Positions 31,964 through 34,928 of a stretch of 35,604 nucleotides of DNA are shown piece by piece (position 1 is the first letter of the stretch; each line of letters begins with the position of its first letter). The position numbers and the translations under genes were made by a program. A model generated the notes under the pieces. The model did no database searches. It worked only from the letters and a program-made list of their open reading frames with translations, and had not been told where the DNA came from. The stretch is from a bacterium (GTDB lineage Bacteria; Bacillota_I; Bacilli_A; RFN20; DUOZ01), in assembly GCA_012838555.1 (NCBI GenBank), contig DUOZ01000100.1:1-35604 (forward strand), written 5' to 3'.

Positions 31964-33100
31964 TCAGTCATGATGATTTTTATGATGTGGAATTTTGTCT
32001 CTTATTTCTTTTACCTTTTCTTTGATTTTTTCTTTAACTTCCTCTTTTATCTTTTTTATTTTTTCATTACGACATTTAAAGAATTCTTGTCCATCAAAGA
32101 AATGATAACGATAGAGTGTTTCTCCAGTTTCTTCATCAGTAATGATAAAGACTTTGATATCAATTACATTACGGTCTTTAATGATTCTAATTTTAATTAA
32201 TTGTTTACCTTCTTCTTCAATCTTTTTGAAACTGTAGTCTTCATAACTTCCATTTTCATATAATCTTAATTTAATTTCTGTTTTAGATTCAACGTTTTTA
32301 ACATTAATATCAGAAATTGATTCGATTTTACCGTCTTTAACAATTCGATATTTAAAGTTCTCTTTATCTTCATTACTCATATGAGAAACTCTTACATAAT
32401 TAAAGCGGTCAATAAATGAAATAAAGCTTGTTTTAGTAAATGTTTCATGAGCGATTCTAACACCTTTGATTTCATAATGTTCTTCCCCGACAATCATTAT
32501 TCCTTCAATAAGTGTAGAGACTTCATCAATTTTATCTCTTATACGGTCTAAATGACGAACTTCTTTAACCTTACTATGATAATTTTCAACGATTTCATCA
32601 ACTGACTCAACTTCATTACCAACTTCTTCTTCATCAGTGATATCCTCTTCAATTTCATCTTCAACATCAATAATTACTTCATTATAATATAGAACATAAC
32701 TTTGAGTTTCTCCTAGTAAACTTTTTGTTGAAATAATCATCATATAATCAAATTCTTCAATATCAGAATTTGAGATATTACTACTTAAGACACCTTCATC
32801 ACTTAATAAACTTTCAAATAGATTTACATAATAATTAATCTTTTCAATTTCTTCTTCACCGACTTCATTCCAAGCTAGATTCATCGCTTTAGATGCATTT
32901 GTCTCAGCTGACATATCAAATTGAGAAAGTAGTGACGCACTAGTTAATGCAGAAAAACCATAAACATCGTCGACATCATTAATTTCTGTTATGTATTCAC
33001 TCTTTTTTTCAGTATCTACATCTGAAGAATTAAGAGTTGAACAACCTCCTAGGATTAAAAGTGATACTAAAATTGATAAAGCAAAATTTTTCTTTTTCAT
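31964..33100 (-). CDS. Predicted lipoprotein of unknown function, acidic middle, charged helix and His-rich C-terminus
   Basis: MKKKNFALSILVSLLILGGCSTLNSS (lipobox GGC); C-terminus KIKEEVKEKIKEKVKEIRDKIPHHKNHHD. SD AAGGAGG. Confidence 0.85.
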   Translation of the reverse strand: MKKKNFALSILVSLLILGGCSTLNSSDVDTEKKSEYITEINDVDDVYGFSALTSASLLSQFDMSAETNASKAMNLAWNEVGEEEIEKINYYVNLFESLLSDEGVLSSNISNSDIEEFDYMMIISTKSLLGETQSYVLYYNEVIIDVEDEIEEDITDEEEVGNEVESVDEIVENYHSKVKEVRHLDRIRDKIDEVSTLIEGIMIVGEEHYEIKGVRIAHETFTKTSFISFIDRFNYVRVSHMSNEDKENFKYRIVKDGKIESISDINVKNVESKTEIKLRLYENGSYEDYSFKKIEEEGKQLIKIRIIKDRNVIDIKVFIITDEETGETLYRYHFFDGQEFFKCRNEKIKKIKEEVKEKIKEKVKEIRDKIPHHKNHHD

Positions 33101-33138: not shown

Positions 33139-33170
33139 ATATAACTCTTTAAGATTTCATTTTGTTGGTA
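33139..33170 (-). promoter_or_regulatory. Predicted ECF-sigma-dependent promoter (lipoprotein)
   Basis: Minus strand TACCAACAAA (33161-33170) - 15 nt - GTTATAT (33139-33145); identical elements and spacing to 34897-34928. Confidence 0.75.
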
Positions 33171-33174
33171 AAAT

Positions 33175-34290
33175 TTATTTATGTTGATGATGTTGTTTTT
33201 TAAAATCATTCTTTTTCGTATCAAATTCACTTTGTAAATCATCTAATTGCTTCTTTAACAAGTCCTTATAATCATCTAATAACACTTTAAGTGCATTAAT
33301 TTCATGCTGATCTTTAGGATCGTTAATTTTAAACTCCCAATCTAAATGATTTTCTAAAATGAAATTATTAAACTTTTGCTTTACTCTATTTAAGAAAACT
33401 TTATTTTTAATTTTAGGTAAATCTTTTAAGATATCTTCGATTTTATCAATTCTTTCATTGATTAAATCCCTAGTTTCATTAAACTCTTTTCGAAACTCTT
33501 TAAATTCATCTTTTAAGGCATCATGATAATTATCGATTTCTTCTTTATTAAAACCATTAATTAACTCATTAAGTTCTTTAACTGAAAGAACTCTAGCTTG
33601 TTCAAAGGTTAAAGTTTGATCTTTATCACATGCTTTAGTGATTAATAAATATCTACCAACACTAACACCTAGTTCTTTAGCATGATTTTTAAAATCATCA
33701 TTATTACTCATTAAAACATTAACACGATTATCTAATAATTGCTCCTGCAAATAAATAGTAATAGCATTTTTTATTAATAAAGAAACTTCATTTTCTTTTA
33801 CCTCATCATCATTAATCGCTGTTATCATTAAAGCATTATCAGTTGTATCTTTATTAATATAACCTACTTCAATAGCTAAATTTACAATTTCTTTAACAGC
33901 ATCTTTAATATCTAAATCAATAAGTTCACATTCAAATAGTAACAACATCGCTTCTTTATTTAATGGACGATAAGAAGTTACTTTATTATCTTTATCAATT
34001 TCTAATTCAATTGATGGATTAATATCAATCGAAACATATGTGTTTAATTCTTCTACCTTAACAATACTTGATGGTGTAAAGGCATCTTTAAAAAGTGGAA
34101 TAATTGTAAATAAAACAAGTGCCGCAGCAAAAACTAAACTAATAAATGAACGCTTCATTTTCTTTTTAACTATATAATCATTACTAGGAGAATAGTAACT
34201 ATCAAGCTTTGACATTAATTCATCTTTAAGATTAGGAACGATAGAATCTGCTTCTATTTTTAATCTTTTTTCAATTTCTTTAATCTTCAT
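33175..34290 (-). CDS. RsgI-like transmembrane anti-sigma factor
   Basis: Single TM (SFISLVFAAALVLFTIIPLF) followed by TYVSIDINPSIELEIDKDNKV (RsgI-type domain with Asn-Pro), ELGVSVGRYLLITKA, then a long charged helix ending KKQHHQHK. Overlaps the sigma gene. Confidence 0.8.
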   Translation of the reverse strand: MKIKEIEKRLKIEADSIVPNLKDELMSKLDSYYSPSNDYIVKKKMKRSFISLVFAAALVLFTIIPLFKDAFTPSSIVKVEELNTYVSIDINPSIELEIDKDNKVTSYRPLNKEAMLLLFECELIDLDIKDAVKEIVNLAIEVGYINKDTTDNALMITAINDDEVKENEVSLLIKNAITIYLQEQLLDNRVNVLMSNNDDFKNHAKELGVSVGRYLLITKACDKDQTLTFEQARVLSVKELNELINGFNKEEIDNYHDALKDEFKEFRKEFNETRDLINERIDKIEDILKDLPKIKNKVFLNRVKQKFNNFILENHLDWEFKINDPKDQHEINALKVLLDDYKDLLKKQLDDLQSEFDTKKNDFKKQHHQHK

Positions 34291-34825
34291 TACTAATTCC
34301 CCCTTTCTCTAAATGTTCTTTTAAGGTATTCAAAGCTTTTAAATATTTCCAAGTAATTGTACTTATAGGTTTATTTAAGATTTTAGCAACTTCTTTACGC
34401 TTCATATTTAAGAATAAACACATCGCTAGAATCTGATATTCATCATCAGGTAAAACTTTTTTGGCTAGATCGATGGTCGGAGTATCAATATCACGTTCAT
34501 TTTCTTGGACTCCAAATAAATACTCATTTTCACTAACATCAATTGATTGTTCTTTCTTTCTAACTCTTAATTCATCTAGTGAAAGATTTCTTACTATTGT
34601 TGTAATCCATGCTCCTGGATTTGAATTATCTTGATATGATGATATTTTTTGCATGATTTTAAGATAGGTATTTTGCATAACATCTTTAGCTAATTCTCTA
34701 TTTTTTAAAATCGATAAAGCATAATGAAACACGTATTTATGAGTCATATCATAAATAGGTCCAAATGCTTCTTTTTTACCGTACTTAAACTCTAACATCC
34801 ATTTATTTAATGCTTGGTGATCCAT
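34280..34825 (-). CDS. ECF-type RNA polymerase sigma factor
   Basis: YVFHYALSILKNRELAKDVMQNTYLKIMQKISSYQDNSNPGAWITTIVRNLSLDELR (sigma2) and VLPDDEYQILAMCLFLNMKRKEVAKILNKPISTITWKYLKALNTLKEHL (sigma4). ATG at 34825. Confidence 0.93.
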   Translation of the reverse strand: MDHQALNKWMLEFKYGKKEAFGPIYDMTHKYVFHYALSILKNRELAKDVMQNTYLKIMQKISSYQDNSNPGAWITTIVRNLSLDELRVRKKEQSIDVSENEYLFGVQENERDIDTPTIDLAKKVLPDDEYQILAMCLFLNMKRKEVAKILNKPISTITWKYLKALNTLKEHLEKGGISNED

Positions 34826-34896
34826 ACACTTACCTTCCATCTAATAGTCAAATTATACCACACTTTTTCAAAAGTAAATGTAGTCATCACTCAATA

Positions 34897-34928
34897 ATAT
34901 AACGATGAAGTGATATTGTTTGTTGGTA
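34897..34928 (-). promoter_or_regulatory. Predicted autoregulatory ECF-sigma promoter (sigma/anti-sigma operon)
   Basis: Minus strand TACCAACAAA (34919-34928) - 15 nt - GTTATAT (34897-34903). Confidence 0.75.

Follow-up and report, generated by a model that had tools for sequence, protein, structure and literature searches.

A duplicated two-block motif as the likely promoter of an ECF sigma factor operon with an RsgI-type anti-sigma factor and a companion lipoprotein gene

A two-block motif that stands in identical form before an ECF sigma factor operon and before the adjoining lipoprotein gene is very probably a promoter recognised by that sigma factor, the only ECF in its genome. The sigma factor is proposed to govern an autoregulated envelope response of few target genes. 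The DNA analysed (hereafter the window, 35,604 nucleotides, 29% GC) is an entire contig (C77) of the 1.63-Mb draft genome of an uncultured Bacilli-type bacterium, a lineage assigned by way of its relatives. An autoregulated ECF promoter is by itself ordinary, because about 55% of ECFs autoregulate (PMC8103513). The new elements are an RsgI-type ectodomain on an ECF inhibitor, an unnamed lipoprotein family, and domain exchange. We give an even chance to a broader proposal, that of a widespread ECF system with three parts, whose sensor is split between the anti-sigma factor and a lipoprotein induced by the sigma factor. The outer domains of these two proteins, of the RsgI/SEAL type and of an unnamed beta-rich type, would be interchangeable, and the lipoprotein half, made after activation, would close the loop.

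The motif reads TACCAACAAA-N15-GTTATAT, and both minus-strand copies match the original prediction letter for letter. Checked directly, the two agree at each of the 17 element bases and in the 15-nt spacing, and they differ in their spacers. On the minus strand, the first copy is followed by the sigma gene, the overlapping anti-sigma gene, the second copy, and the lipoprotein gene (Table 1). A first-order Markov estimate predicts 0.001 exact copies per whole genome and 3e-5 per window. The 1.63 Mb scanned contain three: the two window copies and one on another contig, C91. Intragenic copies lacking upstream enrichment, the pattern that would speak against a promoter, were not seen; all three exact copies are intergenic, sense-oriented, and placed ahead of a start codon. 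The view that the two window copies reflect chance or a recent, functionless duplication can draw on the AT-rich genome and on the abundance of copies with 2–3 mismatches. However, three exact copies, all upstream, against 0.001 expected, and order-wide conservation at the same positions (see below) contradict this view, which we consider hardly credible. Nor are the two copies a recent duplication, because their spacers differ.

Table 1. Positions of the motif copies, genes, and related loci
Feature	Position	Strand	Remarks
Promoter 1 (putative): TACCAACAAA-CAATATCACTTCATC-GTTATAT	34897..34928	-	before sigma operon; end of -10 block 56 nt from listed sigma start
ECF sigma factor, 186 aa	34280..34840	-	TIGR02937, PF04542
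Anti-sigma factor, 371 aa	33175..34290	-	RsgI_M; matches RsgI structures by sequence and fold
Promoter 2 (putative): TACCAACAAA-ATGAAATCTTAAAGA-GTTATAT	33139..33170	-	before lipoprotein; 38 nt to its ATG
Lipoprotein, 378 aa	31964..33100	-	lipobox LGGC, His-rich tail; unnamed family, also anti-sigma ectodomain in relatives
Third exact motif copy	C91:12355-12386		16 nt before protease gene
One-mismatch motif copy	C121:524-555		21 nt ahead of Alg14-like glycosyltransferase gene running off contig end
Mirror-image loci	L104:5513-7731, L105:5513-7734, L109:5477-7712		paired architecture
Possible sigma/anti-sigma fusions	L081:4986-6569, L087:1297-2973, L090:4941-6545, L093:4983-6581		single ORFs, Clostridia

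The motif was also proposed as a means of finding the rest of the regulon. The exact form yielded a third member, a surface protease; relaxed versions returned background. Across the whole genome, the full motif has a single match with one mismatch and 30 matches with 2–3 mismatches; the latter are mostly intragenic background and were dropped. A relaxed-pattern scan of the same genome gave 23 matches in total versus 26 for the reversed pattern, and 17 of the 20 one-mismatch matches beyond the exact three are intragenic. Extension with CCAAYAAA-N14-18-GTWT was likewise rejected. Because such looser scans give mostly intragenic background, with counts not above the reversed control for CCAAYAAA-N14-18-GTWT and for the one-mismatch pattern, the firm regulon comprises three promoters. 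The glycosyltransferase gene behind the one-mismatch copy is a mere candidate for a fourth member, possibly linked to surface polysaccharide synthesis.

The copy on C91 had no part in defining the pattern. It precedes the gene for a lipoprotein of 276 aa whose trypsin-like peptidase domain (PF13365, Trypsin_2, 1.8e-21) has the His, Asp, and Ser motifs (NYHVFS, KDKDLAVV, and SGNSGGAL). The protein is not a full HtrA, because it has no PDZ domain. No motif was found in front of the protease homologues of relatives, so the link between protease and sigma factor comes from one genome.

Conservation was examined with related sigma factors gathered from 79 genomes of the same order and from GTDB genomes. 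Many of their genes are preceded by the two-block motif TACCAAYAAA-N15-GTWWWW. With TACCAAYAAA-N15-GTWW and a spacer of exactly 15, a match lies within 200 nt upstream of 31 of the 83 related sigma genes, versus an average of 0.075 matches in shuffled sequences. Upstream of the same 83 genes, spacers of 14 or 16 gave no match and the reverse strand gave 0. Lipoprotein homologues carry the upstream motif in 11 of 37 cases (0.035 in shuffles), and distant ECF genes in 1 of 31. The Y and GTWW positions were chosen after inspecting relatives; the -35 core and the spacing had been fixed beforehand by the window. Seven loci (L183, L189, L190, L191, L193, L205, and L206) have the motif at both the sigma and the lipoprotein positions, with a spacer of 16 in the lipoprotein motifs of L205 and L206. 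The other sigma loci (52/83) have no motif within 200 nt at the stringency used; there the motif may have diverged or be absent, or gene starts may be misplaced.

The expected conservation at orthologous loci is thus present, both before related sigma operons and before lipoprotein homologues, with the spacer of 15. What relatives share is the core CCAAYAAA-N15-GTWW, which makes the flanking TA and the full GTTATAT in part local features. A strict order-wide scan gave nine matches, five at sigma or lipoprotein promoters and four elsewhere, and the reversed control gave five. A lengthened form, CCAACAAAATG-N12-GTTTA, occurs at five loci from Acetivibrio/Herbivorax and some Tenericutes (L113, L114, L115, L116, and L128), and the lipoprotein promoter of the window likewise begins with CCAACAAAATG. 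An ECF locus of the same type, with the motif, was found in a MAG labelled Staphylococcus epidermidis (L100, CAMBSI010000041.1), which is probably a mislabelled or contaminated bin.

Sequence conservation alone does not distinguish a promoter from an operator, and the motif could therefore be bound by some other transcription factor with joint control over the sigma operon and the lipoprotein gene. We regard this explanation as improbable. Two blocks with a rigid 15-nt spacing, a variable spacer, and a fixed orientation fit an ECF promoter. CCAAC or CCAAT stands at -35 and GTTA or GTAT at -10, 2–106 nt before starts, and the motif accompanies the sigma gene in many genomes. A typical ECF promoter has AAC at -35 and CGT at -10 (PMC8103513), and the AAC-type and CGT-type elements of an autoregulatory promoter are found here by both sequence and conservation. 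The preferred reading remains that the motif is the promoter of the sigma factor. The exact conserved promoters before both genes support the predicted autoregulation and control of the lipoprotein, and from them we infer transcription itself.

The sigma factor belongs to the ECF superfamily, scoring 69.3 bits against TIGR02937 (cut-off 42.9). Region 2 is clear (PF04542, 8e-14), and region 4 is weak (PF08281, 0.0016, under the Pfam cut-off). Homologues point to a possible start at the internal ATG (34825) that opens MDHQ. The gene overlaps the downstream gene for an anti-sigma factor with one membrane helix, in the window as in relatives. Seven proteins of the genome match sigma70_r2, and this is the sole ECF among them; the other six, named by reading, resemble RpoD, sporulation-type sigma factors, and one other. 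Several sporulation-type sigma factors, two in tandem, together with a second M50 protease that looks like SpoIVFB (C151, L154 and L156; C82, L155; C109, L153; C147:11512-11913, L277), point to possible spore formation in this bacterium with its small genome. In four Clostridia loci, the ECF sigma factor and an RsgI-type anti-sigma factor appear to share a single ORF, a possible fusion, with the lipoprotein gene just upstream (Table 1).

The anti-sigma factor has a short cytoplasmic N-terminus, one membrane helix, an RsgI-type (SEAL) ectodomain, a long helix, and a His-rich tail. Its ectodomain matches RsgI_M (PF23750, 5.2e-28) and solved RsgI domains by sequence (8her, 1e-20), and its AlphaFold model matches RsgI structures by fold (8hdj, 2e-8). 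An Asn-Pro site in DINPS (N91-P92) is near-invariant across 21 aligned sequences, and solved RsgI chains start aligning at the proline of this pair. By analogy with RsgI, the ectodomain would self-cleave at this site. Pfam matches up to E = 1 did not include RsgI_N, the domain with which RsgI binds SigI in the cytoplasm; the protein is therefore classed as an ECF inhibitor with an RsgI-type ectodomain rather than as an RsgI orthologue. The genome also encodes an RseP-like M50 protease (1.6e-57). After a long charged helix, both the lipoprotein (HHKNHHD, 31964-31990, minus strand) and the anti-sigma factor (QHHQHK, 33175-33200, minus strand) end in His-rich tails, which may point to a common metal or polymer contact.

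The lipoprotein has no Pfam match and no meaningful NCBIfam match. An iterated profile connects it with two groups of proteins, the lipoproteins encoded next to related sigma operons and the anti-sigma ectodomains of those operons, and by this sequence relationship we judge the domains homologous. Three architectures are found. An RsgI-type anti-sigma factor is paired with a new-type lipoprotein in the window, L080, L085, L094, and L096; both proteins are of the new type in L091, L118, L183, L189, L190, and others; and the mirror image, a new-type anti-sigma factor with an RsgI-type lipoprotein, occurs in three Tenericutes or Acholeplasmataceae records (L104, L105, and L109). In L109, the motif stands ahead of the sigma operon and, separately, ahead of the lipoprotein. 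On a quick sigma tree of 63 loci, whose deep branches are weak, the ectodomain type changes five times, and at least three changes are forced by well-supported branches. The predicted structure of the lipoprotein is a helical N-terminus followed by 11 strands (pLDDT 72.5), with no counterpart in a Foldseek search of the PDB (best E 0.04). A LolA/RseB-like fold, expected from the 11 strands, was not supported, with no such match in the top 50 PDB results.

When two domains swap positions between membrane-anchored proteins that serve one sigma factor, the simplest explanation is that these partners work together. Because the two ectodomain types are interchangeable between them across relatives, the lipoprotein and the anti-sigma factor most likely come together at the outer surface of the membrane. 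As to whether they make up a two-piece sensor, our judgement is about evenly balanced. In a competing account, which falls somewhat short of an even chance, the promoter assignment is right and the lipoprotein is an effector only, a structural or binding protein of the surface; its likeness to anti-sigma ectodomains would be historical, through uptake of a common surface domain by anti-sigma factors, with no contact between the two proteins. This account gains from the lack of a PDB match and from 27 RsgI-type loci with no lipoprotein within the distance scanned, some of them truncated by contig ends. However, both domain types occur in both anchors, mirror image included, always beside the same sigma factor, and the type switches repeatedly on the sigma tree. 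Shared history alone predicts no such reciprocal exchange.

The most likely mechanism can be outlined. The anti-sigma factor would keep the sigma factor at the membrane. By homology to RsgI, its ectodomain would self-cleave, with the fragments staying non-covalently assembled; a change in the envelope would separate the pieces, the RseP-like site-2 protease would cut the membrane helix, and the sigma factor would be released. Given the exact conserved promoters, the freed sigma factor would transcribe its own operon, the adjoining lipoprotein gene, and the gene for the surface trypsin/HtrA-like protease. Joint production of the lipoprotein and the protease would be in keeping with a response that guards the quality of envelope proteins. 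RseB acts on RseA as a reset or tuning partner, and fresh lipoprotein might reset or tune the anti-sigma factor in the same manner. This is the least certain step, and since the lipoprotein model has no PDB match, the RseB-like role lacks structural support.

These results offer a testable promoter code for the ECFs of numerous uncultured Bacilli and of some Clostridia, among them lineages from gut and rumen and others that are Acholeplasma-like. They also connect ECF sigma factors with the RsgI ectodomain, a self-cleaving domain known from the SigI system. The unnamed domain family occurs now in the lipoprotein, now in the anti-sigma factor, and this exchange leads us to expect that the two touch directly and act as a feedback sensor on the cell surface.

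One of the closest known systems is SigI/RsgI, found in Bacillus subtilis and Clostridium thermocellum, in which the periplasmic/SEAL domain of RsgI cleaves itself (Chen 2023 and Brogan 2023, cited by PMC12203970). The same paper describes self-cleavage of RsgI ectodomains and completion of the process by RseP and ClpXP. The system described here shares the kind of anti-sigma ectodomain (by profile, sequence, and predicted fold), the Asn-Pro motif, a sigma/anti-sigma operon that is probably autoregulated, and an RseP-type protease in the genome. It differs in that the cognate sigma factor is an ECF rather than SigI, the anti-sigma factor has no RsgI_N match, and the promoter is of the TACCAACAAA/GTTATAT kind, whereas SigI promoters are of the ACCCCC type (PMC4711584). 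Among the papers examined, none described an ECF with an RsgI-like anti-sigma factor.

The Firmicutes ECF operons SigW/RsiW, SigV/RsiV, and SigM are alike in the overlap between the sigma gene and that of a single-pass membrane anti-sigma factor, and in a promoter, here probably autoregulatory, that carries an AAC and a CGTT element. Here, unlike in those operons, the ectodomain is of the RsgI type or the unnamed type, a companion lipoprotein has its own promoter copy, and the -35 core is CCAAYAAA. The likeness to RpoE-RseA-RseB of E. coli and AlgU-MucA-MucB of Pseudomonas is one of working only: a sigma factor, a membrane anti-sigma factor, and a third, extracytoplasmic protein under the sigma factor's control. 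The lipoprotein matches RseB and MucB neither in sequence nor in fold and is instead homologous to anti-sigma ectodomains, and the first cleavage is probably self-cleavage rather than the work of DegS. As in the RpoE and AlgU systems, the proposed regulon includes an HtrA-like protease.
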